From Bacteroidales bacterium (GTDB taxonomy: Bacteria; Bacteroidota; Bacteroidia; Bacteroidales; UBA932), in contig JAFZBH010000012.1 of the NCBI GenBank assembly GCA_017561865.1, forward strand, positions 1-49,740: a stretch of DNA of 49,740 nucleotides, in the 5' to 3' direction. Below the pieces are notes generated by a model, which worked only from the letters and a program-made list of their open reading frames with translations, was not told the origin of the DNA and ran no database searches. The position numbers were made by a program, and so were the translations under genes. The stretch's first letter is position 1. The number at the start of each line of letters is the position of its first letter. Below are positions 23,649-47,451 of the stretch, one piece after another.

Positions 23649-23675
23649 TGTTTCCTGTGGTTATTTGTACTGATG

Positions 23676-23683
23676 CAAAATTA
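23676..23683 (-). promoter_or_regulatory. Bacteroidota -7 element for the carboxylesterase operon
   Basis: The minus strand reads TAATTTTG, a perfect TAnnTTTG, 27 bases before the ATG at 23648. It lies in the 155-base divergent gap with the HTCS gene, a natural place for regulator binding. Confidence 0.55.
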
Positions 23684-23754
23684 GCCGAATTCACCCTCTT
23701 CGTCTTTCCCCTGCTGACATATGTTTTCCTTGGCGTTCAAACGCCTGTTTCGCT

Positions 23755-23786
23755 TTTGTTCATTTTTTTCAAAATTCTTATATTTG
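23755..23786 (+). promoter_or_regulatory. Full Bacteroidota promoter for the HTCS gene
   Basis: TTTG at 23755-23758, a 20-base spacer, then TATATTTG at 23779-23786 match both boxes and the spacing of the primary-sigma consensus exactly. The start codon is 17 bases further on, so the leader is short. Confidence 0.8.
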
Positions 23787-23803
23787 GAATAAAATCAATC
23801 GAT

Positions 23804-26800
23804 ATGAAAAAACCTGTCTGGATCCTCCTGTGCCTGCTGATGGCGTCCTGCGCCCATCTCCAGAGCGCAACGGGCCCCGCCGGGGCCGACAGCGAGGTAC
23901 TTGTCTCGGACCATATTTCCAACCGGAAGGTCAACGCCTTCGCGGAAGACGCCGACGGCCACATCTGGATCGGCACCTTCCGCGGACTCAACAAATACAG
24001 CATCCACGAGTACCACCAGTACTTCTGCCCCGACGACACGCTCGGCCTGCCGGACAACCAGATCACGGCCCTGCATTCCGACGCATCGGGCCGGCTCTGG
24101 GTCGGCACCGTGAACGGCGTGGCGCTCCGGACGGAAGACGGCGGTTTCCGCCGGGTTCCGGTTCTTGCCGACGGCGCCAACATCAGCGAAATACTCGAGA
24201 CTCGCGACGGGCGCGTGCTTTTCAACAATTCCAGCAGCCTGCTGCGCTACGATCCCGACGCGGACTGCATCCGTCCCGTCATCCGCGAATACGGCGGCAA
24301 CCGCACGGTGCTCGGCCAGGACGGCCGCATCTGGACCTACGACCTGGGAGGACTCCGCTGCTATGATCCCACGGATTTCCGGCAGACCGGCAGCTGGACG
24401 GCCACTCACCCGCTCTATCACTTCACCCTGGCGGCAACCGGAGAGATCTGGCTGTCCGGAATGGGCGAACTCAGCATCTTCGACCCGCGTTCCGAGACCT
24501 GGCTGGACATCCCCGAACCCATCCGGCGCGAAAAGCGCCTGGTCGGGGGCGACATCGACATCCTCTACGCCAACGGCCCTGACCTGCTCCTGCACACCAT
24601 CACCGACGGAATGTTCTGCTACAACCAGGCCACCGGGCGCCTGCTGCACCAGAGCGATCCGCAGTTCCCCTACGACATTCCTGACGCCGAGATACGGACC
24701 CTTTTCCGCGACAGCCGGGGCAATCTGTGGTTCGGCCTGACCGACCAGGGCTTCGAAATCTGCCCGACCGACCGGAACGGCTTCAACAGCAACCGTTACC
24801 TGACGGATTTCTTCGAGCGAAAATCGGTGGTTTCCCTCTGCACCGACCAGGGCGGCCGCCTGTGGATATCCACGCTCAACGACGGCCTGTATGCCTATGA
24901 CCTGGCCACGAAAACCCTGCAGCAGGTGGACCTGAAGCGTCTCGTCCCGGACAACAACATCGGCTATATCCGCTGCTCCGGCATCTACTGCGACGCCCAG
25001 GGTGAACTGTGGCTGGTGATGATGGAGAAATACCGCGTCCTGCGCTGCCGCTTCGACGGCAGGCAGCTGCAGGTCACGGACCGGATCGACCAGTTCAACC
25101 CCCTGACCGTCTCACAGGACGACCTGGGGCGCATCTGGATCTCTTCTTATTCCGGGGAGCTCCTGCGCTACGACAAGGCCAGCCGCCAGATCGACCGCCT
25201 CCAGCTCCCGGATGCACAGTGGACCTATGTTCCCGCCCTGCTCCAGGTCGCGCCCGGCCGCATGCTCGCGGCCGCCTACGGACTCCCAATGTACGAAGTC
25301 TTCACCAATGCGGCCGAAGCCCGTTCCTTCGCCACGCCCGACGACGACTGGCGGCAGTACATCCGCCATTCGGTGATCAACCCGACCTGCCTGTTCCGCG
25401 ACAGCGCCGGGGACATCTGGCTCGGCACGGTGGCCAACGGCCTGCTCCGCTACAGCCAGCAGTCCCGCCAGACAAGCGTCGTCTCCGGCACCCCCTGCCC
25501 CGACATCTGCGCCGTCATCGAAGACCGCCAGGGCGGCATCTGGGTCAGCACGATGAACGGACTGGGCCAGTACGACCGCACGGTGGGCAGTTTCACCAAA
25601 TATTTCGAAGAAGACGGGACCGGAGGAAACCAGTACTACGACCGCGCCGCCTGCCTCCTGCCCGACGGCACCCTGGTCTTCGGCGGTACGCACGGCCTGA
25701 CCTGGTTCAACCCGCTTGATCTCCAGCACAGGCAGTCCGCCCCGCTGGTCTTCGAGGACCTCAAGATCCACAATCACGTGGTGCACCCGGGTCCGGACGG
25801 TCCCATCGACCGGGAGCTCTCCGCGCACCCGGACATCACCCTACGCCACGACCAGGACGGCTTCAGCATTTCCTTCGCCGCCCTGGACTACAGCGAGAAC
25901 AATCGCGCGCGCTATGAATATATGATGGACGGCTTCGAGGACTATTGGATCGATCTCGGCACAGCCCACGAAGCCAACTATGCCAACCTGCCCGCCGGGC
26001 ACTACCGTTTCCGCGCCCGCATCCAGGGGGAGCCTGACAGCGAGCAGTCGCTGTCCGTAAGGATCCTTCCGCCCTGGTACCGGACCTGGTGGGCCATCCT
26101 GCTGACCGTGCTCGCCGGCCTGGGCATCCTTTCCGTCGTCTGGATGTCCTGGCGCCGGATCCGGCGGGTACGCAAGGAAGCCGCGCGTCACATCCGCGAA
26201 GTGCGCCGTGAACAGGAGCGGGCCGAGCGCGAAAAAGAGGAGGAGCAGCGGCTCAACCGCATCCAGATGAACTATTTCGCCAACGTGGCGCACGAATTCC
26301 GCACCCCGCTCACGATGATCGCCGGACCGGTGGAGCAGCTCTCCGCCTCGCCCCTCATCCAGGGGCAGGACCGCAAGCTCGTGGGCATCGTCCAGCGGAA
26401 TTCCACCTGGATGCTTTCGCTGGTGGGCCAGCTGCTCGACTTCAACCGCATCGCCAACAAGAAGCTCCAGCTCAAAGTCGCCAAAGGCGATGTCGTGGAG
26501 CCGCTGCAGGGTGTCGCGGACCTCTTCCGCTTCAACGCGGAAATGAAGAACATCGAATTCAACACCTACGGCCTGGAGGACAGTTTCACGATGTGGCGCG
26601 ACGCCGACAAGCTCACCAAGATCACGATGAACCTACTGTCCAACGCGATGAAGTTCACCCCGCCGGGCGGCAAAGTCTCGCTCTCGTTCGACGTCCTGCC
26701 GCGCGAGCAGGCCTCCGTCGACTTCCCGTTGACGGAGGCCGACACGGACGCGCAGTATGCGGCCATCACCGTCGCAGACACGGGCCGCGGCATCCCGGAG

Positions 26801-27832
26801 GGCGAAGAGGAAAAGATCTTCGAACGCTTCTACCAGGCGGGACGCGGCGAGGCCACCGGCTCAGGCATCGGACTCTTCTACGCCCGGGCCCTGGCCGGCC
26901 TGCACCACGGCCATATCCGGGCCTGCAACCGTCCGGAAGGCGGCGCCTCCTTCACCCTGATCCTCCCGGTAAGCGCAGAATCATACACCGAAGACGAGCG
27001 CACCACCGACGATCCGCTGCGCCCGCGCACCCCGGCCGTCGCTTCCACCGCTCCCCTCCCGGAGCCGGAAGATCCCGAGGCCAAGCGCCGGATCGTGGTC
27101 ATCGACGACGACATCGACGTGGCCAACTATGTCAAGATCCTGCTCTCGCCCTACTACAACGTGATCGTCCATTTCGACGCCGACTCCGCGCTGAAAGCCC
27201 TCGAGGAAGAGGCGCCGGACCTGGTCATCAGCGACGTGGTGATGCCCGGGAAGAGCGGATTCGAGCTCTGCGAAGCCATCAAGGGCGATCTCCAGCTCAG
27301 CCACATCCCGGTGATCCTCGTCACGGCCAAGGTGGCCGTCGAGAGCCAGGTCCAGGGCCTGGACAAGGGCGCCGACGCCTATGTGACCAAGCCTTTCAAT
27401 CCGTCTTACCTGCTGGCCCTGGTGAAGTCCCAGCTCGAGAACCGCGACAAGCTGCGCCGGCGCCTGGGCTCGGTGACGAGCACCGAGGACATCGAGCCGG
27501 AAGTGCTGTCACCGCGCGACAGCGCCTTTATGAAGGAGCTTTACGCCCTGATGGACAAGGAGTTGGACAACCAGGAGCTGGACATCACCCGGATCACGGA
27601 GATGATGCGCATCTCGCGCACCAAGTTCTACTACAAGGTCAAGGGCCTGACGGGAGAGAATCCGGGCGTCTTCTTCAAGCGCTACAAGCTCAACCGCGCC
27701 GCCGACCTGCTCAAGGAAGGGAAATACAACATCTCGGAGATCGCCTATATGACGGGCTTCAACACCCTGTCACACTTCTCCACTTCCTTCAAGAAGCAGT
27801 TCGGCGTGACTCCCAAGGAGTATTGCGGATAG
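23804..27832 (+). CDS. Hybrid two-component system sensor/regulator (HTCS)
   Basis: A 1342-residue one-protein signalling system. The start at 23804 follows a full promoter and gives the signal MKKPVWILLCLLMASC. Residues 30-660 are two-component-regulator propeller repeats (AFAEDADGHIWIGTFRGL, LHSDASGRLWVGTVNGV). A Y_Y_Y domain follows at about 665-755 and a membrane span at about 763-783. The kinase has His near 830 in VAHEFRTPL, then NLLSNAMKFTPPGG and ADTGRGIPEGEEEKIFERFY. The receiver domain has Asp near 1144 in VISDVVMPG. An AraC-type DNA-binding domain ends the protein (ITEMMRISRTKFYYKVKGL, ISEIAYMTGFN). HTCS proteins bind a glycan fragment in the periplasm and activate the neighbouring locus, here the esterase/GH3/SusCD genes. 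Confidence 0.95.
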   Translation: MKKPVWILLCLLMASCAHLQSATGPAGADSEVLVSDHISNRKVNAFAEDADGHIWIGTFRGLNKYSIHEYHQYFCPDDTLGLPDNQITALHSDASGRLWVGTVNGVALRTEDGGFRRVPVLADGANISEILETRDGRVLFNNSSSLLRYDPDADCIRPVIREYGGNRTVLGQDGRIWTYDLGGLRCYDPTDFRQTGSWTATHPLYHFTLAATGEIWLSGMGELSIFDPRSETWLDIPEPIRREKRLVGGDIDILYANGPDLLLHTITDGMFCYNQATGRLLHQSDPQFPYDIPDAEIRTLFRDSRGNLWFGLTDQGFEICPTDRNGFNSNRYLTDFFERKSVVSLCTDQGGRLWISTLNDGLYAYDLATKTLQQVDLKRLVPDNNIGYIRCSGIYCDAQGELWLVMMEKYRVLRCRFDGRQLQVTDRIDQFNPLTVSQDDLGRIWISSYSGELLRYDKASRQIDRLQLPDAQWTYVPALLQVAPGRMLAAAYGLPMYEVFTNAAEARSFATPDDDWRQYIRHSVINPTCLFRDSAGDIWLGTVANGLLRYSQQSRQTSVVSGTPCPDICAVIEDRQGGIWVSTMNGLGQYDRTVGSFTKYFEEDGTGGNQYYDRAACLLPDGTLVFGGTHGLTWFNPLDLQHRQSAPLVFEDLKIHNHVVHPGPDGPIDRELSAHPDITLRHDQDGFSISFAALDYSENNRARYEYMMDGFEDYWIDLGTAHEANYANLPAGHYRFRARIQGEPDSEQSLSVRILPPWYRTWWAILLTVLAGLGILSVVWMSWRRIRRVRKEAARHIREVRREQERAEREKEEEQRLNRIQMNYFANVAHEFRTPLTMIAGPVEQLSASPLIQGQDRKLVGIVQRNSTWMLSLVGQLLDFNRIANKKLQLKVAKGDVVEPLQGVADLFRFNAEMKNIEFNTYGLEDSFTMWRDADKLTKITMNLLSNAMKFTPPGGKVSLSFDVLPREQASVDFPLTEADTDAQYAAITVADTGRGIPEGEEEKIFERFYQAGRGEATGSGIGLFYARALAGLHHGHIRACNRPEGGASFTLILPVSAESYTEDERTTDDPLRPRTPAVASTAPLPEPEDPEAKRRIVVIDDDIDVANYVKILLSPYYNVIVHFDADSALKALEEEAPDLVISDVVMPGKSGFELCEAIKGDLQLSHIPVILVTAKVAVESQVQGLDKGADAYVTKPFNPSYLLALVKSQLENRDKLRRRLGSVTSTEDIEPEVLSPRDSAFMKELYALMDKELDNQELDITRITEMMRISRTKFYYKVKGLTGENPGVFFKRYKLNRAADLLKEGKYNISEIAYMTGFNTLSHFSTSFKKQFGVTPKEYCG

Positions 27833-27839
27833 GGGTCAG

Positions 27840-28034
27840 CGAAGTCTCCCCTTTCCCGGCGTAGGCCTCGGGAGTGCGCCCCGTCGGACTAAAAACGTCC
27901 GCCCGGCCGCATCCCGGGCCTTGTCGCCTTCCGTTTTTTTGCGACAGCCGTCCCCACGCACTCCACGCACGGCCCCCGACAGCACGGGCCACCGTGCGCA
28001 GGCCCCCGCACATCCTCCCGCCGGCTGTCGCAAA
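27840..28034 (+). repeat. Structured two-hairpin element, copy 1, after the HTCS gene
   Basis: Starting 7 bases after the HTCS stop, it opens with CGAAGTC. A small hairpin follows (CGGAC 27885-27889, loop TAAAAAC, GTCCG 27897-27901). A long hairpin is closed by a 13-base perfect inverted repeat (27938-27950 with 28022-28034, TTTGCGACAGCCG). Inside the long hairpin is the core CACGCACGGCCCCCGAC (27964-27980) and GTGCGCAGGCC (27994-28004). Copy 2 at 38909-39075 (other strand, after fba) shares the core exactly, while both stems have different but still paired bases. It could be a 3'-UTR RNA, a REP-like repeat or both. Confidence 0.75.
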
Positions 28035-28067
28035 TCCATTCCTTCCACATTCTTTTTAACCTGTCGG

Positions 28068-28100
28068 AGTGTAGTCACCCCTAAAAGTGTAGTCACCCCT
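28068..28100 (+). promoter_or_regulatory. Tandem 15-base direct repeat, operator-like
   Basis: AGTGTAGTCACCCCT occurs at 28068-28082 and again at 28086-28100, an 18-base period, ending where the -33 box of the next promoter begins. Two identical direct repeats in this position are typical of an activator or repressor site. Confidence 0.65.
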
Positions 28101-28129
28101 TGGCTTTCAAGAAATAATCCCTATCTTTG
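28099..28129 (+). promoter_or_regulatory. Bacteroidota promoter for the short transcript
   Basis: CTTG (28099-28102), a 19-base spacer, then TATCTTTG (28122-28129), a perfect -7 box and a near-perfect -33 box. Transcription should start near 28134-28137. Confidence 0.75.
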
Positions 28130-28139
28130 CGATGAGATA

Positions 28140-28199
28140 ATGAAAGCCGACAACGATCGGCTATGTTTTTGGACAAACTATGGAGAGCGCCAAACCTGA
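28140..28199 (+). CDS. Possible 19-residue micro-ORF inside the small transcript
   Basis: ATG at 28140 opens MKADNDRLCFWTNYGERQT and stops at TGA 28197-28199, inside the loop of the terminator hairpin. It would begin 3-6 bases after the predicted transcript start. No ribosome binding site is visible, but Bacteroidota often lack one. It could be a leader-type peptide or chance; codon content alone cannot decide. Confidence 0.3.
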   Translation: MKADNDRLCFWTNYGERQT

Positions 28200-28219
28200 G
28201 AAGGCGTGGCGCTCTTTTT
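28184..28219 (+). terminator. Intrinsic terminator of the small transcript
   Basis: AGAGCGCC (28184-28191) pairs with GGCGCTCT (28208-28215) across a 16-base loop and is followed by TTTTT. Confidence 0.85.
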
Positions 28220-28228
28220 CTATTCAAG

Positions 28229-28249
28229 ATCCCCGATCAAGTCGGGGAT
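28229..28249. repeat. Palindromic repeat, short form
   Basis: ATCCCCGA, TCAAG, TCGGGGAT is a perfect palindrome with a 5-base loop followed by GACGGG. It is the simplest of four related repeats (also 44279, 48699 and 49039). It lies just before the stop of the LysM gene and may double as its 3' hairpin. Confidence 0.7.
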
Positions 28250-28257
28250 GACGGGGG

Positions 28258-29289
28258 TTATTTCAGCTTGCGAAGCAGGACGGTGTCGCCGGGCTTGAGG
28301 GGCTCGTCGCCGCGCCAGACATTGTAGAGGCGGAGTTTCTTCAGCTGCACGCCGAACATCTGGGAGATGTCCCAGAGGGTCTCGTCCTCGCGCTGCACCA
28401 GGTAGCGCCCGACGGCGGCCTGCGGCTTCTTGCGGCCCAGATACACCCAGTTGCCCGGCTTCAGCTCGGAGGGAGCCGTGAGGTCGTTGTATTTCAAGAG
28501 TTGTTTCGGGAAAAGCCCGTAGGCGGCCGCGATGGAATCCCAGGTCTCGCCCTCGAGGGCGCGGATGTATTTCACGCCGTTCTGCTCGTAGACCGGCCGG
28601 GAGAAAGAAAGCACCACGGGGCCGTCTTCCGTCTTTCCGGGCACCTCCTGCTGCTGCTGAATCAGCACCCGCTCCGGCTCCTTCACCTCTTCCGGCTCAT
28701 CGGCGGCCTTCTGTTCAGGCTCCTGCTCCGCAGGCTTGAAAGTCACAACCGGCATTTCAGGCATCTGCTCCATCACTGCGTCCTCTTGCGCCAGCTCGTC
28801 GAAACGGTAGAGCTGGAAGTCTTCGATCAGGTTGATCAGCTTGGTCGCATAGCCCGGATCGGTGGCATAACCCGCCCGGCGAAGGCCTCTCGCCCAGCCC
28901 TGATAGTCGCCGGGCTCCAGGTCGAAGAGCGCCTTGTAGCGGTCGTGCTCCACCAGGTAGTCGGAATGCGCCCGATACGAATCCTCAGCGGTCGGATAGA
29001 CGCGGAAGCACTCGTCGGGCGTCTCGTCGTCATACAGGAAACGCTCCCCTTTCCATTCGTTGTGGCACTTCAGGCCGAAATGGTTGTGCGCCTTCGTGGC
29101 CAGCGGAGACTGCCCCGCCCCGGACTCCAGAAGCGCCTGCGCGAGGGTGATGCTCGCCGGCACGCCCGTGCGCTGCATTTCGGAGACGGCCAGGGCCGAA
29201 TACTGGTTGATATAGGCCTGGCGCGGGTTCTGTCCGGCGCCGAGGGTCGGAGTCGCCACCGCGAGAAGGAAGAGAAGAATACGTTTCAT
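28258..29289 (-). CDS. Secreted glucosaminidase with two LysM domains
   Basis: A 343-residue peptidoglycan hydrolase. The start at 29289 gives the signal peptide MKRILLFLLAVATPTLGAGQ; the longer upstream frame is an antisense shadow of the rnz region. Residues 22-165 are an N-acetylglucosaminidase domain of the FlgJ/mannosyl-glycoprotein-endo type (SITLAQALLESGAGQSPLA, with the probable catalytic Glu, then HNHFGLKCHNEWKGERFLY). A Pro/Glu-rich linker at about 170-220 leads to two LysM repeats (GETWDSIAAAYGLFPKQLLK and DETLWDISQMFGVQLKKLRL) that bind glycan strands. It would act in the periplasm in wall remodelling. It has its own promoter overlapping the rnz stop. Confidence 0.9.
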   Translation of the reverse strand: MKRILLFLLAVATPTLGAGQNPRQAYINQYSALAVSEMQRTGVPASITLAQALLESGAGQSPLATKAHNHFGLKCHNEWKGERFLYDDETPDECFRVYPTAEDSYRAHSDYLVEHDRYKALFDLEPGDYQGWARGLRRAGYATDPGYATKLINLIEDFQLYRFDELAQEDAVMEQMPEMPVVTFKPAEQEPEQKAADEPEEVKEPERVLIQQQQEVPGKTEDGPVVLSFSRPVYEQNGVKYIRALEGETWDSIAAAYGLFPKQLLKYNDLTAPSELKPGNWVYLGRKKPQAAVGRYLVQREDETLWDISQMFGVQLKKLRLYNVWRGDEPLKPGDTVLLRKLK

Positions 29290-29322
29290 CGCCACGAAGT
29301 TACGCGCAAAGCGGCAGAAAAG

Positions 29323-29330
29323 CAAATTTA
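29323..29330 (-). promoter_or_regulatory. Bacteroidota -7 element for the LysM gene
   Basis: The minus strand reads TAAATTTG, a perfect match, overlapping the last codons and stop of rnz (stop at 29328) and 33 bases before the LysM-protein ATG. Confidence 0.55.
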
Positions 29331-30131
29331 GAATTCGATCACCTCGCCGTCCTGGCCCGCGACCGAGTCCGGGAAGACGGCGCGGCACTCCGACAGCAGG
29401 GCGTCGAAATCCGTGATCCGCGAGGAATAATGCCCGATCAGCAGGCGCGCAGCCCCGGCGTCGCGGGCGCAGCGGGCGGCCTGTTCTCCGGTAGAATGCC
29501 CGCGCGCGGCGGCCTTGTCGGCCATCTCGGCGGGATAGGTCGCCTCGTGGTAGAGCAGGTCCACGCCCCGCACCCAGCCGGCCAGCTCCGGGAAAGGAGC
29601 GGTGTCGGAGCAATAGGCAAAGGATTTGGCGTGATAGGCCGGGTTCTCGAGACGGTGCCTTTCCGTCACGGTCTCGTCGAAGCGCCAGCCGTAGCACTCG
29701 ATCTTGTGGTTCAGCGGGAAAGCACTGACGGTCAGCCATTTGGACGTGTGCACCAGCTGCGGCTCCCGGCAGTCGACCGCCGTGAAGACGATCTCATAGA
29801 GGGTCCCTTCGCCGAAGAAGCTCCGGTAGAAATTCAGCACGGAGCCCAGCGCCTGCGGGCCGTAGATGTACAGCGGAGCCGTCCGGCCGTACATCGCCAT
29901 CGTGTTCAGCAGGCCGAACAGGCCGAACAGATGGTCGCCGTGGATGTGGGAGATGAACACCGCCTCCACCTTCAGGAAAGACAGGTGGGCACGCCGCATC
30001 TGCTGCTGCGTGCCCTCCCCGCAATCCAGAAGGAACAAGCGCCCGTGCACGGCGAGCACCTGGGCGCTTGGGTTCCTATCAGAAATGGGCATGGCCGAAG
30101 CCGTGCCCATTATCGTGAGTGTGAAGTTCAT
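29328..30131 (-). CDS. rnz: Ribonuclease Z
   Basis: A 267-residue metallo-beta-lactamase-fold endonuclease that trims tRNA 3' ends. The N-terminus FTLTIMGTASAMPISDRNPS and LLDCGEGTQQQMRRA are family blocks. The zinc site HIHGDH lies at residues 62-67, with further ligands in LNHKIE, YCSDTAP and LIGHYSSR. It is shorter than the roughly 305-residue form of many bacteria, with a reduced exosite arm between GPQALGSVLNFY and the C-terminus, but all zinc ligands appear present. It starts 6 bases after the rpsA stop and is probably co-transcribed with it. Confidence 0.93.
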   Translation of the reverse strand: MNFTLTIMGTASAMPISDRNPSAQVLAVHGRLFLLDCGEGTQQQMRRAHLSFLKVEAVFISHIHGDHLFGLFGLLNTMAMYGRTAPLYIYGPQALGSVLNFYRSFFGEGTLYEIVFTAVDCREPQLVHTSKWLTVSAFPLNHKIECYGWRFDETVTERHRLENPAYHAKSFAYCSDTAPFPELAGWVRGVDLLYHEATYPAEMADKAAARGHSTGEQAARCARDAGAARLLIGHYSSRITDFDALLSECRAVFPDSVAGQDGEVIEF

Positions 30132-30137
30132 CGGAAA

Positions 30138-31988
30138 TTACTCGCCTTTCTCGAGTCTTTCCTTCAGCGCGGCCAGGGCGTCGATGTCGCCGAGCGTGGT
30201 CTTCTCCACGTTGGAGTTGACCTTCTTGACGGCCTTCTTGGTGCTCTCGGCCTCGCTCGCGGCGGCGCGCTCCTTTACCTCCTGGTAGGTGCGCACGTGG
30301 CTGAGGAGAATCCGGCGGGTGGAGCGACGGAGCTCGACCACCTTGAACGGAAGGGTCTCGCCGGCGACGGCCTGCTTGCCGTCCTCCTTGATGAGCTCGC
30401 GGTTGAACGCGAAGCCCTCGGCGTCACCCTCGAGGGTGATGTTGGCGCCCTTGTCGGTCGTGGAAGCGATGGTGCCCTCCACGGTGGAGCCGACCGGGAA
30501 CTTGGCCTCGATCTCGTCCCAAGGGTTCGGGACCAGCTGCTTGTGACCCAGGCTCAGTTTGTGGTTCTGCTCGTCGAACTCGAGGATCTGGACGTCGATC
30601 TCGTCGCCGGGGGCGACCACCTCGGACGGGTGCTTGATCTTGTTCCAGCTCAGGTCGCTGATGTGCACGAGGCCCTCCACGCCGTCCTCCAGCTCGGCGA
30701 ACACGCCGAAGTTGGTGATGTTGCGGACGGTGGCCTTGTGGCGGCTGCCGACGGGATACTTCTCGCGGATGCTCTCCCAAGGGTTCGGCATCAACTGCTT
30801 CAGGCCGAGGGAAATCTTGCGGGCTTCACGGTCGATGGAAAGCACCTGGGCTTCCACCTCGTCGCCGACCTTGAGGAACTCCTGGGCGGAGTGCAGCCTT
30901 GGGGACCAGGACATCTCGGACACGTGCACAAGACCCTCCACGCCCGGCTCGATCTCGATGAAGGCGCCGTAGTCTGCGATGAGGATGACCTTGCCCTTGA
31001 CCTTGTCGCCTTCCTTGAGGTTGGCGTCCAGGTTCTCCCACGGGTGCGGGGTGAGCTGCTTGAGACCGAGCGCGATGCGCTTCTGCTGCTCGTTGAAGTC
31101 GAGCACGACCACCTTGATCTTCTCGTCCAGGGCGACAACCTCCTCGGGATGGTTGACGCGGCCCCAGCTGAGGTCGGTGATGTGGATCAGACCGTCCACG
31201 CCGCCGAGGTCCACGAACACGCCGTAGTTGGTGATGTTCTTGACCACGCCTTCGAGGACCTGGCCCTTCTCCAGCTTGCTGATGAGCTCGGCACGCTTCG
31301 CCTCCTGCTCGGCCTCGAGCAGCGCCTTGTGGCTGACGACGACGTTGCGGAACTCCTGGTTGATCTTGACGATCTTGCAGTCGATGTTCTGGTTGACGAA
31401 CTGATCGTAGTCACGGATGGGCTTGATGTCGATCTGGCTGCCCGGCAGGAAAGCCTCGATGCCGAACACGTCGACGATCATACCGCCCTTCGTGCGGGTC
31501 TTGACGAAGCCCTTGACGATCTCGTCGTTCTCATAGGCCTCGTTGACCCTATCCCAAGACTTGAGGGTGCGGGCCTTGCGGTGGGAAAGCACCAGCTGGC
31601 CCTTCTTGTCCTCCGCGGACTCGACATACACTTCCACCTTGTCGCCGACCTTGATGTCGGGATCGTAGCGGAACTCGGACACGGGGATGACGCCCTCGCT
31701 CTTGCCGCCGATCGTCACGACGACCTCGCGCTTGTTGACGGCGGTCACTTCACCCTCGACCACTTCGTTCTCGACGACCTTGGACAGGGTGGCGCCGTAA
31801 GCGTCCTCGATGGCCTTCTTGTCGGTGCTGCCGTAGACATCACCGCCCTCGAAGGCATCCCAGTCGAAGTCTTCCGGCTTCACGGACGCATTGATCCGCA
31901 CACCGGCAGCCTTGGTTTCTTTTTTCTCCTGGGGGGCTTCCACGACGGGGGCCTCGGCCACAGGAACTTCATTCTTGATTTCTTCCAT
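30138..31988 (-). CDS. rpsA: 30S ribosomal protein S1
   Basis: A 616-residue protein with six S1 RNA-binding domains. Their starts read VEGEVTAVNKREVVVTIGG, VKGFVKTRTKGGMIVDVFG, LEGVVKNITNYGVFVDLGG, VKGKVILIADYGAFIEIEPG, HKATVRNITNFGVFAELEDG and VEGTIASTTDKGANITLEGD. Domains 3-5 carry the GLxHxxxxS core that binds mRNA. The N-terminal 30 residues are acidic and low-complexity (VPVAEAPVVEAPQEKKETKA), as in other Bacteroidota S1 proteins. S1 brings mRNA to the 30S subunit, which matters in a group whose genes often lack ribosome binding sites. The leader is about 70 nt long. rnz follows 6 bases downstream. Confidence 0.96.
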   Translation of the reverse strand: MEEIKNEVPVAEAPVVEAPQEKKETKAAGVRINASVKPEDFDWDAFEGGDVYGSTDKKAIEDAYGATLSKVVENEVVEGEVTAVNKREVVVTIGGKSEGVIPVSEFRYDPDIKVGDKVEVYVESAEDKKGQLVLSHRKARTLKSWDRVNEAYENDEIVKGFVKTRTKGGMIVDVFGIEAFLPGSQIDIKPIRDYDQFVNQNIDCKIVKINQEFRNVVVSHKALLEAEQEAKRAELISKLEKGQVLEGVVKNITNYGVFVDLGGVDGLIHITDLSWGRVNHPEEVVALDEKIKVVVLDFNEQQKRIALGLKQLTPHPWENLDANLKEGDKVKGKVILIADYGAFIEIEPGVEGLVHVSEMSWSPRLHSAQEFLKVGDEVEAQVLSIDREARKISLGLKQLMPNPWESIREKYPVGSRHKATVRNITNFGVFAELEDGVEGLVHISDLSWNKIKHPSEVVAPGDEIDVQILEFDEQNHKLSLGHKQLVPNPWDEIEAKFPVGSTVEGTIASTTDKGANITLEGDAEGFAFNRELIKEDGKQAVAGETLPFKVVELRRSTRRILLSHVRTYQEVKERAAASEAESTKKAVKKVNSNVEKTTLGDIDALAALKERLEKGE

Positions 31989-32061
31989 TGTGTTGATAAA
32001 TCAAACTAGTAGTTAAACAATATTTCTTGTCCCGCCGGCAGGGTGCCGGATTTCGGGCGCG

Positions 32062-32069
32062 CAAAGTTA
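32062..32069 (-). promoter_or_regulatory. Bacteroidota -7 element for rpsA
   Basis: The minus strand reads TAACTTTG, a perfect match, 73 bases before the rpsA ATG. The 129-base gap to recR also carries the recR promoter, with the two -7 boxes 21 bases apart and facing away from each other. Confidence 0.6.
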
Positions 32070-32090
32070 GCAAATAATTCTGATTTTCAC

Positions 32091-32098
32091 TACCTTTG
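32091..32098 (+). promoter_or_regulatory. Bacteroidota -7 element for recR
   Basis: TACCTTTG is a perfect match, 19 bases before the recR ATG. It is divergent from the rpsA promoter. Confidence 0.6.
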
Positions 32099-32117
32099 TA
32101 TTTCAGATTTGTGAAAA

Positions 32118-32795
32118 ATGTATCAGAACGGCAAATACCCCTCCGAAGTCCTCCGCGAAGCGGTCGAAGCCATCGGCTCGCTGCCGGGCGTGGGCTCGCG
32201 CAGCGCCCTGCGCCTGGCCCTGCACCTGCTGGGCCAGCCCGCGGAGAACATCCGCCACTTCGCCTCGGCGGTCGGGCGTCTTGCCGACGACGTACATTAT
32301 TGCCGGACCTGCCAGATGATCGCCGACTCGGACACCTGCCCGATCTGCGCCGACAGCACGCGCGACCACCGCACCATCTGCGTGGTGGAAAGCGTGCGGG
32401 ACGTGATGAGCATCGAGGCGACGGGCCAGTACCGGGGCGTGTACCACGTCCTCGGCGGGGTCATCTCCCCCATCGACGGGATCGGTCCTTCGGACGTTCG
32501 CATCAAGGAGCTGGTGGAGCGTATCGACCGGATGGTCGCGGGGGACGCCGCAGACAGTGATTCCGGGCCAAGCCGGGAAATCTTCCCGGCCCCGGTTCCG
32601 CCCGAAATCATCCTGGCGCTGTCCGGCGATGTCGAAGGGGAAACGACTTCCTTATATATCTACCGCCAGATCGAGGGGCGCGGCGTCAAGGTCTCCACCC
32701 TCGCCCGCGGCCTGGGCTTCGGCGACGACCTCGAATACGCCGACTCCCTCACCCTCGGCCGCTCGCTGCTCGCGCGGCAACCATTCAAGCCTTAA
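32118..32795 (+). CDS. recR: Recombination mediator protein RecR
   Basis: A 225-residue RecF-pathway protein that, with RecO and RecF, helps load RecA at single-strand gaps. The helix-hairpin-helix is at IGSLPGVGSRSALRLALHLL, the four-Cys zinc finger at CRTCQMIADSDTCPIC, and the TOPRIM domain follows (VVESVRDVMSIEATGQYRGV, YHVLGGVISPIDGIGP). About 15 extra residues (GDAADSDSGPSREIFPAP) sit in the TOPRIM domain before EIILALSGDVEGE, compared with the usual 200-residue form. Its TAA shares the palindrome TTAA with the stop of the convergent mntP gene. Confidence 0.96.
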   Translation: MYQNGKYPSEVLREAVEAIGSLPGVGSRSALRLALHLLGQPAENIRHFASAVGRLADDVHYCRTCQMIADSDTCPICADSTRDHRTICVVESVRDVMSIEATGQYRGVYHVLGGVISPIDGIGPSDVRIKELVERIDRMVAGDAADSDSGPSREIFPAPVPPEIILALSGDVEGETTSLYIYRQIEGRGVKVSTLARGLGFGDDLEYADSLTLGRSLLARQPFKP

Positions 32796-33340
32796 AACAA
32801 CAGGGAAACCCCGATACCGATCAGGACCAGGCCGCCGATGATTTCAGCCCAGCGGCCGAAACGTTTGCCGACGGCACTCCCGCCGCGAAGACCCGCGATG
32901 ACGGACAGGGCCGTGATGACGAAAACGGAAACGAGAAGCGGCAGGAAACCCGCGAAGGAGACGTCCTCCATCGACTGCGCCACGCCCACGGCGAGTGCGT
33001 CGATGCTTGTGGCCACGCCACCGACGATGACATTGCGCAGGCCGTCCAGGTTCCGTACTTCTTCTTTACCCCGGATGCCTTCGATGAGCATCGATCCTCC
33101 CACATAAAGCAGCATCAGGAAGGCGATGATGTGGGATATCTTCTCGACCAGGCCGACGAAAAGATAGCCGAACGCCCAGCCGACGGCCAGCAGGCCGGCC
33201 TGGATGACGGCGAAGGCAAACGCCACGGCCAATACGCGTTTCCAGCGGACGTCACGCAGGGTGACGCCGGAGCACAGCGAGACCGCGAAACAGTCGGCGC
33301 ACAGCGACGCCGCAACCAGAATGGCTTCCAGAATTCCCAT
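32792..33340 (-). CDS. mntP: Manganese efflux pump MntP
   Basis: A 182-residue integral membrane protein with six predicted spans, the size of the MntP/DUF204 family that exports Mn2+. The paired Asp motifs are visible as LCADCFAVSL in span 1 and SIDALAVGVAQ in span 4; these repeats with intramembrane Asp are typical of the family. It overlaps the convergent recR gene by 4 bases at the stop. A TATCTTTG promoter lies 8 bases before the ATG. No Mn-responsive yybP-ykoY-like leader is possible in so short a 5' end. Confidence 0.92.
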   Translation of the reverse strand: MGILEAILVAASLCADCFAVSLCSGVTLRDVRWKRVLAVAFAFAVIQAGLLAVGWAFGYLFVGLVEKISHIIAFLMLLYVGGSMLIEGIRGKEEVRNLDGLRNVIVGGVATSIDALAVGVAQSMEDVSFAGFLPLLVSVFVITALSVIAGLRGGSAVGKRFGRWAEIIGGLVLIGIGVSLLF

Positions 33341-33348
33341 TTCAGCCG

Positions 33349-33356
33349 CAAAGATA
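33349..33356 (-). promoter_or_regulatory. Bacteroidota -7 element for mntP
   Basis: The minus strand reads TATCTTTG, 8 bases before the ATG, again predicting a nearly leaderless transcript. The left end of the repeat element at 33388 lies 31 bases upstream. Confidence 0.55.
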
Positions 33357-33387
33357 CTAATTCTTCCTTTATTATTCTCCGCTTTCC

Positions 33388-33482
33388 GCCGGCGGACGGA
33401 GTCTTCCAGACGGGCGGCCGGAAATTATTTTTCGGACAGGTTTGCCGAAAAACCAATTTCCGCTCCGCTTTCCGCCGCCGGC
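33388..33482. repeat. MITE-like element, short copy A (95 bp)
   Basis: Its ends form terminal inverted repeats: reading inward, GCCGGCGGACGGAG on the left and GCCGGCGGCGGAAAGCGGAG on the right. The left 33 bases (33388-33420) are identical to 38689-38721. The right part (33432-33482) matches 38824-38874 with one mismatch. In this copy only 11 bases separate the two conserved blocks, against 102 in copy B. It fills the gap between the divergent mntP and corA promoters. Confidence 0.75.
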
Positions 33483-33484
33483 GG

Positions 33485-33515
33485 GTTGCGAATTGAAAAT
33501 GTTTTTTTACCTTTG
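33485..33515 (+). promoter_or_regulatory. Bacteroidota promoter for corA
   Basis: GTTG (33485-33488), 19 bases, then TACCTTTG (33508-33515). The upstream box begins 3 bases after the MITE-like element ends, so the element may have shaped this promoter. Confidence 0.6.
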
Positions 33516-33519
33516 TAGG

Positions 33520-33598
33520 CTTGCTTCTCCGTGACGCGAGCTATCCCGTAAGTTTAACCCCCTTCCGACAAGTGTGCCGGGACCAACCAGGAAGGAAG
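33520..33598 (+). promoter_or_regulatory. Leader of corA with a possible SD-masking stem
   Basis: This leader of about 79 nt is long compared with neighbouring genes. CCTTCC at 33561-33566 can pair with GGAAGG at 33590-33595, which contains the only strong Shine-Dalgarno-like sequence noted here, next to the ATG at 33599. CCCG (33545) can compete by pairing with CGGG (33578). It does not look like the known Mg2+ M-box. Confidence 0.35.
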
Positions 33599-34552
33599 AT
33601 GATCAAGGTTTTCTACAGACGTGGCGGCCAGATTGCCGTCAGCCAGTCCGAAACGGAGTTTGCTGCTATCGGCAAAGAAAATGTCCTCTGGATAGACCTC
33701 CTGCAGCCGTCAGGAGAGCAGAAGAGGGCTGTCGAGACGTTTCTCGGCACGGAGATCCAGAGCCGTGCCGAAGCGGAGGAGATTGAAAGTTCCTCCCGCT
33801 TCTACGAAGAGAACGGCGCCATTTTCGCCAACACCAATTTCCTCTCCCCATCCTCCGACGAGATGCTGATGGATCCCGTGTCCTTCATCCTCGTGGGAAG
33901 CATCCTCACGACGGTCCGTGAGATTCCGCTGCGTTCGCTGGACACCCTGCAGATGAAGATCCAGGCCCTGCCGGAGCAGTTCCCCGACGGGTTCACCACC
34001 TTCGTGGAGATCATGGACAAGCGCGTGGACCTGGACGCCGACATCGTGGAGCTCATCTCCAAGGACGTGTCGCAGTTCAGCAAGCGCATCAACCAGCAGG
34101 AGGACATCAACGAAGAGTTCCTGCTGGATATCAACCAGTTGCAGGAAAATGCCATGACGGTCCGCGAAAACATCGTGGACAAGCAGCGCCTGATCTCCAA
34201 CATCCTCAAGAGCAAGCTCTGTCCCCGCGACCCGGAGCTGCGGGCGGACCTGAACGTCATCTCCCAGGATATCGCCTCGCTGATCAACCACACCAACTTC
34301 ACCTTCGAACGTCTGGAATACCTGCAGGACACGGTCCTCGGCATTATCAACCTCGACCAGAACAACATCATGAAGATCTTCACCTTCGTGTCGTTGCTGC
34401 TGATGCCGGCCACCCTCGTGGCGAGTTTCTACGGGATGAACGTCACCCTGCCCTTCGCTGAGAAGTGGTGGGCCTGGCTCGCGCTCTTCCTGCTGATGGT
34501 CTGCCTGATCATCAGCATCTGGATCATCTTCAAGCGGAAGAAAATGCTTTAG
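33599..34552 (+). CDS. corA: CorA-family magnesium/cobalt transporter
   Basis: A 317-residue protein with a long cytoplasmic N-terminal domain rich in coiled coil (about residues 130-255, KRVDLDADIVELISKDVSQF). Two C-terminal membrane spans follow, the first ending in the signature YGMNV (Gly-Met-Asn at about 279-281). A short basic tail (FKRKKML) ends the protein. The GMN loop is the selectivity filter of CorA pentamers. The start at 33599 is preferred over an in-frame ATG at 33521, which would fall at the transcript start. The thioredoxin-like gene follows after 2 bases. Confidence 0.93.
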   Translation: MIKVFYRRGGQIAVSQSETEFAAIGKENVLWIDLLQPSGEQKRAVETFLGTEIQSRAEAEEIESSSRFYEENGAIFANTNFLSPSSDEMLMDPVSFILVGSILTTVREIPLRSLDTLQMKIQALPEQFPDGFTTFVEIMDKRVDLDADIVELISKDVSQFSKRINQQEDINEEFLLDINQLQENAMTVRENIVDKQRLISNILKSKLCPRDPELRADLNVISQDIASLINHTNFTFERLEYLQDTVLGIINLDQNNIMKIFTFVSLLLMPATLVASFYGMNVTLPFAEKWWAWLALFLLMVCLIISIWIIFKRKKML

Positions 34553-34554
34553 CC

Positions 34555-35103
34555 ATGAAAAAGAAGATTCTGGGATTCCTGGCATTGGCGGTCATAATCG
34601 TCGTGTCATTCGCAAGCGGCCTGTTCTCGGACCTCGATGAAAACCCGGAAAACGGAACCGGTCAACCCCTGCAGGAGCAGACGGACCAGTTTCCGCCTTC
34701 CGTCAAAAAGGCACCCGACGTCTCGCCGGAAAATATGCTGGACGCCATCCTGGCCCGGTATGCGGGAGAAGTGGTGCTAGTGGACTTCTGGGCCACCTGG
34801 TGCCAGCCCTGCCTGCAGGCCATGGAAAAGCTTGAGCCCCTCAAGGACAGCCGCTTCAAGAATGTGAAGTTCGTCTATGTGACGGATGCCACCTCCCCGA
34901 AGGAAACCTGGGAGCAGATGGTTCCCGGCATTCATGGAGACCACTACTATCTCGAGGGCGCCGGCATGGACCTGATCCTCGGCCAGCTCGGCTCTGGGGG
35001 CTACCCGACCTATCTGGTCGTAGACCGGGAAGGCAATCGGGTCCGGACCTTCATCGGCTACCAGGGCGAGAAGATGCTCAAACTGCTCGACGAGGCGCTC
35101 TGA
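34555..35103 (+). CDS. Membrane-anchored thioredoxin-like protein (TlpA/ResA type)
   Basis: A 182-residue protein with an N-terminal membrane anchor or signal (ILGFLALAVIIVVSFASGLF) and a linker to about residue 60. The thioredoxin fold carries VVLVDFWATWCQPCLQAME, active-site Cys at about 83 and 86. The cis-Pro region is GGYPTYLVVDREG. It faces the periplasm and is likely a thiol reductase or a disulfide-relay partner. It starts 2 bases after corA, so the two are co-transcribed, although no functional link is evident. GH2 follows after 38 bases. Confidence 0.9.
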   Translation: MKKKILGFLALAVIIVVSFASGLFSDLDENPENGTGQPLQEQTDQFPPSVKKAPDVSPENMLDAILARYAGEVVLVDFWATWCQPCLQAMEKLEPLKDSRFKNVKFVYVTDATSPKETWEQMVPGIHGDHYYLEGAGMDLILGQLGSGGYPTYLVVDREGNRVRTFIGYQGEKMLKLLDEAL

Positions 35104-35135
35104 GACTGGATCTGTATCAACAAATAACCACATAA

Positions 35136-38102
<2,967 letters not shown>

Positions 38103-38116
38103 CGATTGAGGGGGAA

Positions 38117-38632
38117 TCAGAAGTTGAAGGCGAAGCTGCAGTACAGGAGATTGGGCTTGGCGTACACATTGACATATCCGTCGTAGCGTGAATATTCCGT
38201 AACCTTTGACACGGAATACTCATAGCCGAGACGGATGCTGTAGCGGCCGAAATCCACGCCGCCGCCCAAGGCGACACCATAACCCAAGTACTCGCTGTCG
38301 GGACCGATGCGCAGTCCGGTACGGACGGCGGCAAAGGGACTGACCGGACGGTTGATGAAATTATACTTCGCATCCAGGAAAACCGGGATGTAATAATCCC
38401 CGTTCAGGTCGATGCCTGCGCCCAGGCCGGCTCCGACAAAGGATCCGTCCCCGAAACTATACCCTTGGGTGGTGGTCAACTGGGCGATACCGCCCACCTT
38501 ATCTTTGCCGAACACGGCATAATTACCGATCTCAACATTGCCCCGATATCCTTTCCGGAACATCCGGCTCTCCTGCGCGGAAAGCACCGCACAACCGAGA
38601 ATCAACACAAAAACCAATAGAATCTTTTTCAT
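38117..38632 (-). CDS. Small outer-membrane beta-barrel protein
   Basis: A 171-residue protein with a signal peptide ending VLSAQ. It alternates short amphipathic strands and tight turns (VGGIAQLTTTQGYSFGDGSF, LGYGVALGGGVDFGRYSIRL) and ends in an aromatic residue (CSFAFNF). This fits an eight-stranded barrel of the OmpA/OmpX kind, common in Bacteroidota. Its specific role is unknown. It is convergent with the GH2 gene (14 bases between stops) and has its own promoter. Confidence 0.8.
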   Translation of the reverse strand: MKKILLVFVLILGCAVLSAQESRMFRKGYRGNVEIGNYAVFGKDKVGGIAQLTTTQGYSFGDGSFVGAGLGAGIDLNGDYYIPVFLDAKYNFINRPVSPFAAVRTGLRIGPDSEYLGYGVALGGGVDFGRYSIRLGYEYSVSKVTEYSRYDGYVNVYAKPNLLYCSFAFNF

Positions 38633-38654
38633 AATCGTTCACAATTTGGGGCCG

Positions 38655-38662
38655 CAAAGATA
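38655..38662 (-). promoter_or_regulatory. Bacteroidota -7 element for the barrel protein
   Basis: The minus strand reads TATCTTTG, 22 bases before the ATG, in an AT-rich stretch. MITE-like copy B begins 27 bases further upstream. Confidence 0.6.
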
Positions 38663-38688
38663 ATAAAATTTTTAAAAAACCCACTACA

Positions 38689-38874
38689 GCCGGCGGACGG
38701 AGTCTTCCAGACGGGCGGCCGCTCTATATGGCGGGGCATATCCCCGAACCCCTGCGGCGCTCAAGTCCCTTTCCGACTTTGCACGGCAAAGTCCCGGGAC
38801 CGCGCCGGTCGGCTGATGCCGACTCGGACAGGTTTGCCGAAAAACCAATTTCCGCTCCGCTATCCGCCGCCGGC
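38689..38874. repeat. MITE-like element, long copy B (186 bp)
   Basis: It has the same ends as copy A (33388-33482). The interior is 102 bases instead of 11 and is packed with hairpins: GGGG/CCCC near 38732-38745, GACTTTGC/GCAAAGTC (38775-38782 with 38786-38793) and GTCGGC/GCCGAC (38808-38813 with 38818-38823). The longer copy is probably the ancestral form and copy A an internal deletion. No transposase reading frame is present. Confidence 0.75.
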
Positions 38875-38908
38875 TGCAGAGCAACGCAGCCGCTGATTTA
38901 ATTTAATT

Positions 38909-39075
38909 GCAGCAGCCGGAGCGTGGGGCGTGCGGAGGCCTGCGCACGTTTGCCCCGCGCAGTCGGGGGCCGTGCGTGGGGTGGGCCGGAGCGGCTGCTG
39001 CCCGGCTGGGAGCCATAACGAAGACCCGGGGTCCACGGGAGCATTTTTCGCTCACGGGGATCCCGGGACTTCGTT
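38909..39075 (-). repeat. Structured two-hairpin element, copy 2, after fba
   Basis: In fba sense it begins 17 bases after the stop with CGAAGTC. A hairpin (39017-39030 with 39062-39075) caps an inner stem GAGC/GCTC with a 7-base loop (39039-39053). A long hairpin is closed by GCAGCAGCCG (38909-38918) and CGGCTGCTGC (38992-39001). The core matches copy 1 (27840-28034) exactly over 17 bases (38962-38978) and 11 bases (38937-38947). The closing stem is GCGACAGCCG in copy 1 and GCAGCAGCCG here, with both sides changed to stay paired. Confidence 0.75.
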
Positions 39076-39090
39076 GGCGGAATAAAAGGA

Positions 39091-40092
39091 CTAGCGGGCC
39101 TTGCCGTTCGAGCCGAGGACGTTGATGATCTTGTGGACGTACATCTTCTTCATCTCCTCGCGCGCCGGCTTCAGATACTGGCGCGGATCGAAATGACCCG
39201 GATTCTCGGCGAGGTGCTTGCGCACCGCGGCCGTCATCGCCAGGCGGCTGTCCGAATCGATGTTGATCTTACACACTGCGCTCTTCGCGGCCTTGCGCAG
39301 CTGAGACTCGGGAATGCCGATCGCGTTGGGCAGCTTGCCGCCGAACTGATTGCACATATCCACATACTCCTGCGGCACGGAAGAAGACCCGTGAAGCACG
39401 ATCGGGAAGCCCGGAAGCTTCTTCTCGATGGCCTTCAGCACATCAAAAGCGAGGGGCGGCGGGACCAGCTTGCCGTTCTCGTCGCGCGTGCACTGCTCCG
39501 GCGTGAACTTGTAGGCGCCGTGGGACGTACCGATGGAGATGGCGAGCGAGTCGCACTTGGTCTTCTTCACGAAGTCGATCACCTCCTCGGGCTTGGTGTA
39601 GTGGGACACCGCGGAGGACACCTCGTCCTCGACACCGGCCAGCACGCCGAGCTCAGCCTCGACGGTCACGTCGTGCTTATGGGCGTAGTTGACCACCTTG
39701 CGGGTCAGCTTCACGTTCTCCTCGTAAGGCAGCGAGGAAGCGTCGATCATCACGGAAGAGAAACCGAAATCCACGCAGCTCTTGCACAGCTCGTAGCTGT
39801 CGCCGTGGTCCAGGTGAAGGACGATCTGGGGCTTCTTCCAGCCAAGCTCCTTGGCATATTCGACGGCACCCTGGGCCATATAGCGCAGCAGGGTCTGGTT
39901 GGCGTAGTTGCGGGCGCCCTTGGATACCTGCAGGATCACAGGGGACTTCGTCTCGGCAGCGGCCTGGATAATGGCCTGCAGCTGCTCCATATTGTTGAAA
40001 TTGAAAGCGGGGATGGCATAACCGCCCTTGACGGCCTTCGCGAACATCTCGCGGGTGTTCACAAGACCCAGTTCTTTGAATGAAACCTTCAT
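39091..40092 (-). CDS. fba: Class II fructose-bisphosphate aldolase
   Basis: A 333-residue zinc-dependent aldolase of glycolysis and gluconeogenesis, splitting fructose 1,6-bisphosphate into dihydroxyacetone phosphate and glyceraldehyde 3-phosphate. The zinc and substrate residues are visible in VLHLDHGDS (His93, Asp95, His96), VEAELGVLAGVEDE and SIGTSHGAYKF, with a further His in FPIVLHGSSS and the phosphate-binding CKINIDSDSR. Its length suits the long-chain class II type. It has its own promoter, divergent from gmk. Its 3' region carries the structured element at 38909-39075, which may act as its terminator or mRNA stabiliser. Confidence 0.96.
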   Translation of the reverse strand: MKVSFKELGLVNTREMFAKAVKGGYAIPAFNFNNMEQLQAIIQAAAETKSPVILQVSKGARNYANQTLLRYMAQGAVEYAKELGWKKPQIVLHLDHGDSYELCKSCVDFGFSSVMIDASSLPYEENVKLTRKVVNYAHKHDVTVEAELGVLAGVEDEVSSAVSHYTKPEEVIDFVKKTKCDSLAISIGTSHGAYKFTPEQCTRDENGKLVPPPLAFDVLKAIEKKLPGFPIVLHGSSSVPQEYVDMCNQFGGKLPNAIGIPESQLRKAAKSAVCKINIDSDSRLAMTAAVRKHLAENPGHFDPRQYLKPAREEMKKMYVHKIINVLGSNGKAR

Positions 40093-44207: not shown

Positions 44208-44230
44208 AGGGCTGGGGATTAGTGCTCTTG

Positions 44231-47367: not shown

Positions 47368-47451
47368 AGGGATGTGGATTAGTGCTTGCTAATTACAAAA
47401 AACTAGATTAAATGATTTTTTGGATAAAAAACCTTTCTCCATTACGCCAGA

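Follow-up and report, generated by a model that had tools for sequence, protein, structure and literature searches.

Two copies of a two-hairpin element lie behind genes in the stretch of DNA analysed here (the window, 49,740 nt, which is contig C37 of genome G000, an assembly of 1.58 Mb in 89 contigs that is 56% complete), and they belong to a dispersed family of intergenic repeats that is probably mobile DNA. The family is best filed as a new palindromic REP/MITE-like repeat of some gut Bacteroidales. The initial annotation of the window had left three options for the element, a 3′-UTR stabiliser, a processed small RNA or a REP-like mobile repeat, and the last of these fits best because the element is multicopy, patchy in distribution and found at sites that are occupied in some genomes and empty in others. 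The other two options are disfavoured by the lack of strand bias, by a promoter motif that is all but missing and by the scarcity of G-T pairs on the strand first read, and together with site occupancy these features, as read from the sequences, favour mobile DNA over regulatory RNA. Overall, the earlier interpretation is partly supported.

Architecture of the element and its copies in the window

The unit of the family consists of a hairpin (A) and a block of about 95 nt (B), with A, where present, directly upstream of B, so that the whole element comprises two palindromic modules in about 180-200 bp. As judged from folds and from reading the sequences, hairpin A is built of a basal clamp (GCCA/TGGC, GGCG/CGCC, GCCGG/CCGGC and similar variants), a variable stem, a small and mostly T-rich bulge before the 3′ clamp, and a loop that is usually A-rich; with arms and loop counted, 40 such hairpins measure 45-92 nt (median 68). 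Block B has a G/C-rich core and, across 42 sequences, 24 invariant columns and a mean column identity of 76%. One subfamily begins at about CGCCAG while others have a longer clamp, and the commonest right end, CTGCCGC, is found in 22 of 79 copies. The left CGCCAGCC of one subfamily and the GGCTGNCGC-like right ends form imperfect inverted repeats, which vary between subfamilies.

The two copies in the window (Table 1) match each other by BLAST with E=5.4e-13 and share the exact 17-mer CACGCACGGCCCCCGAC (shuffled sequences gave a mean of 0.45 such matches, and two were reached in 5 of 100), for which there is no third match at up to three mismatches; that they are copies of one two-hairpin element, as first proposed, is thereby confirmed. 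In both, extrahelical bases precede the 3′ clamp of hairpin A (TGT in copy 1). The short stem with a 7-base A-rich loop that had been described for each copy exists, but it is only the tip of the larger hairpin A. Both copies had also been said to begin with CGAAGTC, and this word does stand 7 nt after the stop codon of the HTCS gene (27830-27832) at copy 1 and, starting at 39073, 17 nt after that of fba (39093-39091) at copy 2. It lies outside hairpin A in copy 1 and in the 5′ arm of A in copy 2, and since just 2 of 79 copies have it within 150 nt upstream of B, its presence is a coincidence and its standing as a family feature is ruled out.

Table 1. Positions and parts of the two element copies and of the genes upstream of them in the window
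Feature	Position	Strand	Parts	Evidence
Copy 1 hairpin A	27858..27928	+	clamp GGCG/CGCC; stem AGGCCTCGGG.../...CCCGGGCCT; tip CGGAC-TAAAAAC-GTCCG	sequence, fold, 88% identical places at G000:C81 and G000:C58
Copy 1 block B	27941..28031	+	closing stem around conserved core, GCGACAGCCG 27941-27950 / CGGCTGTCGC 28022-28031	BLAST in own genome; covariance models R1 and R2
Copy 2 hairpin A	39012..39078	-	clamp GCCA/TGGC; stem ACGAAGTCCCGGG.../...CCCGGGTCTTCGT; tip GAGC-GAAAAAT-GCTC	sequence, fold, G143 orthologue after fba
Copy 2 block B	38909..39001	-	closing stem around conserved core, GCAGCAGCCG 39001-38992 / CGGCTGCTGC 38918-38909	BLAST; covariance models R1 and R2
HTCS hybrid two-component regulator, upstream of copy 1	23648..27832	+		Pfam Reg_prop, Y_Y_Y, HisKA, HATPase_c, Response_reg, HTH_18
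fba, class II fructose-bisphosphate aldolase, upstream of copy 2	39091..40092	-		Pfam F_bP_aldolase, E 5.8e-99

Copies of the family were catalogued in two sets, a first of 48 and a second of 31 (79 in total), the second of which was not used to define hairpin A and includes some orthologues of first-set copies. Hairpin A could be scored in 47 of the 48 first-set copies, one having too little upstream sequence. A symmetric palindrome score of at least 30 was obtained for 27 of these 47, a set on which no control was run, and for 18 of the 31 second-set copies, where the same score was reached in none of 30 downstream stretches (maximum 29) and in none of 62 shuffles (maximum 23) that permuted dinucleotide blocks and were not strictly dinucleotide-preserving. 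Among the copies that score below 30 (20 of 47 and 13 of 31), hairpin A seems to be truncated or interrupted by a contig end in some, and more loosely paired, replaced or altered in others.

A second dispersed repeat, of the GGAAATTGGTTTTTCG type, lies beside copy 2 at 38728-38874 of the window (minus strand), with 94.6% identity over 147 bp to one adjoining the G000:C49 copy. A palindrome of the same kind is found near a RAYT-like gene in genomes G104 and G224, and the GGAAATTGGTTTTTCG-type repeat may be the REP of that gene. In three copies of the element (L092, 1795-1892 of G104:C64; L069 of G104:C22; and L197 of G346:C2) a repeat of this type sits within hairpin A, which looks as though palindromic repeats were able to land in one another.

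Distribution and insertion sites

Block B of copy 1, used as a BLAST query, has 13 matches at E<1e-5 in its own genome, of which five lie no more than 35 nt from a contig end, whereas 60 relatives gave a single remnant (in G008); a search with hairpin A added one further A and B pair in the own genome, cut by the end of contig C81. The repeat tends to end contigs in the draft genomes of these Bacteroidales. A covariance model built from nine own-genome copies (R1, alignment A1) was positive in 10 of 300 genomes of the genus, which may be Cryptobacteroides. The model R2, built from 42 copies (alignment A3, which holds 42 of 45 full-length B sequences and omits three odd or partial ones), was positive in 14 of 400, one of these being G008 with its remnant only, and gave 77 copies in 13 genomes with a maximum of 17 each in G224 and G346. 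In a sample of 393 genomes of the order, in which at least two others of the genus and at least three of the family were among the genomes listed, the own genome was the sole match and block B was found in 0 of the 392 others; in all searches of more than 40 genomes, 10-13 candidates were scored per genome under strict filters, so that weak copies may go undetected in them. When one genome per species (84,980 species) was scanned for an exact pattern, 12 contigs from eight isolates matched; every title names Bacteroidales or Bacteroidia, and three also mention deer or yak. Viral, plasmid and phage sequences gave no match by exact pattern or by blastn (E<=1e-5), and no published family was recognised as A and B in a literature search.

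Gene context was assessed for 48 copies with heuristic ORFs, 39 of which have two neighbours. By raw count the neighbours are convergent in 18 of the 39 and divergent in five, and beside co-directional genes the two orientations are equally frequent (8 versus 8), with no strand preference. The two window copies do share one orientation relative to the gene upstream, as had been noted, but this is not general in the family. No recurrent neighbour gene was seen among the best 25 of 117 families, and there is no common transposase among the neighbour proteins (77 of 83 ORFs scanned, none of them from the window).

Several sites can be compared across genomes. Behind fba the element is present in G000 and G143, while R2 (E<=1) detected none at 29 other fba loci, and in G008 an ordinary T-run terminator stands where G143 has A and B. 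The fba gene of G143 is closer to those of G015 (identity 0.920) and G008 (0.913), both of which have no copy at fba, than to that of G000 (0.905), so that loss, transfer or two insertions are needed. Between the gene for purine nucleoside phosphorylase (PNP) and its convergent neighbour, the element is found in opposite orientations in G082 and G283, with flanks that match crosswise (86.6% over 247 bp and 79.8% over 228 bp); at this site the two genes meet with no spacer in G008, G015 (L211) has another palindrome, unlike A and B, whose arms measure about 30 bp (CATTCCGGCAGCTGCC...GGCAGCTGCCGGAAT), and among 30 loci around the PNP gene R2 finds the element in one, that of G082 itself. A second crosswise case (G082:C71 and G229:C6) involves one flank only and one copy with no clear hairpin A. 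Opposite orientations at one site could have arisen by inversion. Flanks match in the same orientation in 12 pairs, several of them on one flank only, and as several sites are common to different species the activity may be old. In G143 three copies (L064, L071 and L089) have common flanks that hold repeated AACACGGGTG segments, perhaps as parts of a larger duplicated unit.

Target duplications could be sought in the 25 of 79 copies at which both ends fit a pattern. None of these 25 has a flanking direct repeat of 4 nt or more, and two have one of 3 nt; permuted flanks gave a mean of 0.285 copies with at least 5 nt. No target word is shared beyond TCTC in 8 of 40 and ATAT in 5 of 40 copies.

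Covariation, pairing and turnover of hairpin A

The long hairpin of block B had been described as having a closing stem that differs on both sides between the two window copies and yet stays paired, and this holds across the family. In 42 sequences, 95.5% of the cells of the closing stem pair, and seven of the nine pairs have double changes; the 34 double-changed cells compare with a mean of 5.8 in shuffles, none of 500 shuffles reaches this number, and all slid controls are far lower. Further copies and a covarying stem, on which the initial annotation had made its reading depend, are therefore both present (77 copies in 13 genomes). A selected or actively maintained structure is supported for the closing stem. 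The predicted pairs of the core of B vary on one side or not at all, and the core is accordingly conserved as sequence, its structure being putative. An intergenic element may thus covary strongly without being an RNA, and DNA palindromes can be told from regulatory RNA by the types of mismatch, by strand bias and by the occupancy of sites.

The mismatch types are distinctive in hairpin A. In the hairpins that score at least 30, both sets pooled, there are 1,300 Watson-Crick pairs and one G-T pair, the other mismatches being C-T (97), C-C (35), A-C (27) and T-T (3), with no purine-purine mismatch; in 63 terminator-like hairpins from the same loci, used for comparison, no mismatch is more frequent than G-T (26, with 683 Watson-Crick pairs). 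Subfamilies have inherited internal loops in common, which makes the mismatch counts non-independent, and Fisher values are descriptive only. An earlier count by RNA fold in 44 of 48 copies (1,201 Watson-Crick, 12 G-T, 42 A-C, 141 other pairs and 207 gaps) favoured G-U and included spurious hairpins of truncated copies, and it is superseded by the symmetric scoring. From the near absence of G-T, hairpin A on the strand read in the initial annotation is not like a selected RNA. On the complementary strand the mismatches of A read as G-A, G-G and G-T, and the predicted RNA fold is more stable on that (minus) strand for 45 of 45 B and 37 of 40 A sequences; mismatch types and stability together suggest that folding, whether of DNA or of RNA, probably takes place on the complementary strand.

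Hairpin A is well kept at some sites, with identities of 0.81-0.85 at the fba site and 0.94 at an rplY site, and much altered at others. The two copies at one orthologous site, G000:C50 and G143:C4, have an identical clamp, about 86% identity in the 5′ flank and 78-80% in block B; both 25-bp stems of A are perfect, and 11 of the 25 pairs are changed on both sides. Of the 25 positions of the 5′ arm, 14 are identical, a level that shuffles reach at a frequency of 0.0015, and the two stems are thus diverged relatives. In three pairs the identity of A is at the shuffled level (0.60-0.62 versus 0.57-0.59), for which separate insertion is an equally good reading. Block B of G104:C22 is 97% identical to that of G346:C21, and the inside of the G104:C22 hairpin A is replaced by a sequence that holds another repeat. 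Turnover and replacement of hairpin A do occur. A reading in which hairpin A passes on its fold and not its sequence is unlikely; if this were true, an active process would rewrite both arms of A together and renew a folded recognition site, with arm-from-arm copying during replication or exchange of hairpin modules as candidate processes. Should the fast, compensated turnover of hairpin A prove general, it would offer a natural system for the renewal of long palindromes and the recognition of a folded single strand. A guide or target role for A was discarded, as in three genomes, with up to three mismatches allowed, the arms of G000:C50 and G143:C4 matched nothing except the two arms themselves.

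Proposed mode of movement and relation to known systems

The element is probably a non-autonomous mobile DNA repeat that keeps its fold as its sequence changes. It may be moved in trans as folded single-stranded DNA by a Y1/HUH-type enzyme, in the manner of REP and of the ends of IS200/605. This route, drawn by analogy, is put forward tentatively, as a less than even prospect; the missing target duplications and the scarcity of G-T pairs would both fit it. Matches to Y1_Tnp (E<=0.001) occur at 57 places in 21 of 26 tested genomes, whether positive for the element or not, and G143, which is 83% complete, has no such match despite its eight copies. Block B was not detected by R2 (E<=5) in 42 loci that cover 40 of the 57 places, including 22 of the 23 Y1 places of the ten element-bearing genomes searched, with G331, G346 and G388 outside the search and the genomes being incomplete MAGs; R1, used in the search for a RAYT partner, likewise found it at 0 of 30 loci.

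These results bear directly on whether the element is of the REP/BIME type and mobilised by a RAYT (TnpA-REP) of the same genomes, which is rather doubtful. Several RAYT-like genes of the genus are flanked by long palindromes and target duplications are missing, as would suit such a system, but those palindromes belong to other repeat families, no B lies at the 40 Y1 places, hairpin A exceeds the 20-40 bp given for REPs in the available text of PMC3733652, and none of 40 left ends carries a GTAG/GGAG foot within its final 8 nt. A MITE of DDE type with terminal inverted repeats would account for the imperfect inverted repeats of the two ends and for a copy number that is MITE-like, 10-20 copies per genome being called typical of MITEs in the portion of PMC4596501 that was available. 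The dearth of direct repeats at the 25 testable copies makes this unlikely, and a DDE end does not need covarying stems.

The two RNA readings are weighed by other evidence. A multicopy structured RNA on the minus strand, with B followed by A, would agree with the mismatches of A on that strand (G-A, G-G and G-U), with its more stable fold and with the covariation of the stem, but hairpins of single-stranded DNA would look no different, and the element has no orientation bias to genes. TAnnTTTG is a promoter motif of Bacteroidales, and within 100 nt of the ends it is found in 0 of 76 copies on the minus-strand side and in 1 of 78 on the other side. The Rfam search that had been suggested in the initial annotation gave no covariance model match at the gathering score in the window, and in 10 loci (E<=1) only three chance-like miRNA matches below gathering (E 0.018-0.069), so that such an RNA appears unlikely. 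That the element is a 3′-UTR element, or an unusual terminator or stabiliser of the upstream gene, is improbable, even if both window copies lie close behind a stop codon, neither of them has a detected T-run terminator on the gene strand in the interval after the stop, and the element of G143 takes the place of the T-run terminator behind fba in G008. Against it stand the even split of orientations, the five copies between divergent genes, the 29 other fba loci with no element, and the window copies themselves, where neither A nor B is followed by a T-run in the direction of the gene; a single terminator-like site lies inside hairpin A of copy 1, but on the opposite strand. As it lies between gene ends, the mobile repeat may also serve as a passive boundary or 3′ end, as a side effect.

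Among known systems, the element is like REP/BIME/REPIN sequences and their RAYT in being a dispersed, multicopy, extragenic palindrome (77 copies in 13 genomes; contexts of 48) with extrahelical bases in the hairpin and no target duplication seen. It differs as a longer composite unit with neither the short form nor the GTAG/GGAG-type foot of those families, and no RAYT was found beside any copy (40 of 57 Y1 places). Integron attC sites are folded single-strand sites after genes, with a variable palindrome inside fixed ends, extrahelical bases, RYYYAAC/GTTRRRY ends and an arrangement in cassette arrays. The element resembles them in the folded site after genes, the variable palindrome and the extrahelical bases, but no RYYYAAC/GTTRRRY ends were noticed by eye, there is no cassette array, and a conserved B core is present; identity with attC was dropped on reading the sequences, as was identity with a kink-turn.

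Published repeats and RNAs of the same phylum offer further comparisons, each confined to the text of the source that was available. REP units are given as 21-65 nt long in PMC6006769, where TnpA-REP subclass 2.6 of Bacteroidetes is described with atypical palindromes and dispersed structures that flank their own tnpA gene. The phylum and the unusual secondary structures dispersed in the genome are shared with A and B, which are absent from the 40 Y1 places searched and are set apart from that subclass by description, not by sequence; these TnpA-REP genes with atypical dispersed structures (PMC6006769) are, on the text available, the closest lead to a mobiliser. The BrickBuilt MITE of Porphyromonas gingivalis, with 19 elements in a genome and a narrow host range (PMC4596501), is likewise a non-autonomous, intergenic element of Bacteroidales with a narrow host range, but the available text gives it internal 23-nt repeats, IS-like terminal repeats and target duplications in three of four testable cases, none of which were seen in A and B. 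Palindromic candidate structured RNAs of Bacteroidetes are about 80-130 bp long, 230 of 250 being predicted terminators according to the part of PMC8040213 available; they are palindromic and of the same phylum, whereas the window copies have no following T-run, a comparison made by description only.

Elsewhere in the window, a number of segments between positions 4000 and 21800 recur in diverged form, on one strand or the other (D1-D4 and I1-I4), and are probably paralogous genes. Two 100-bp stretches that are 90% identical (44127-44226 and 47287-47386) include the start of the gene at 41502-44207 and are perhaps a duplicated gene start.
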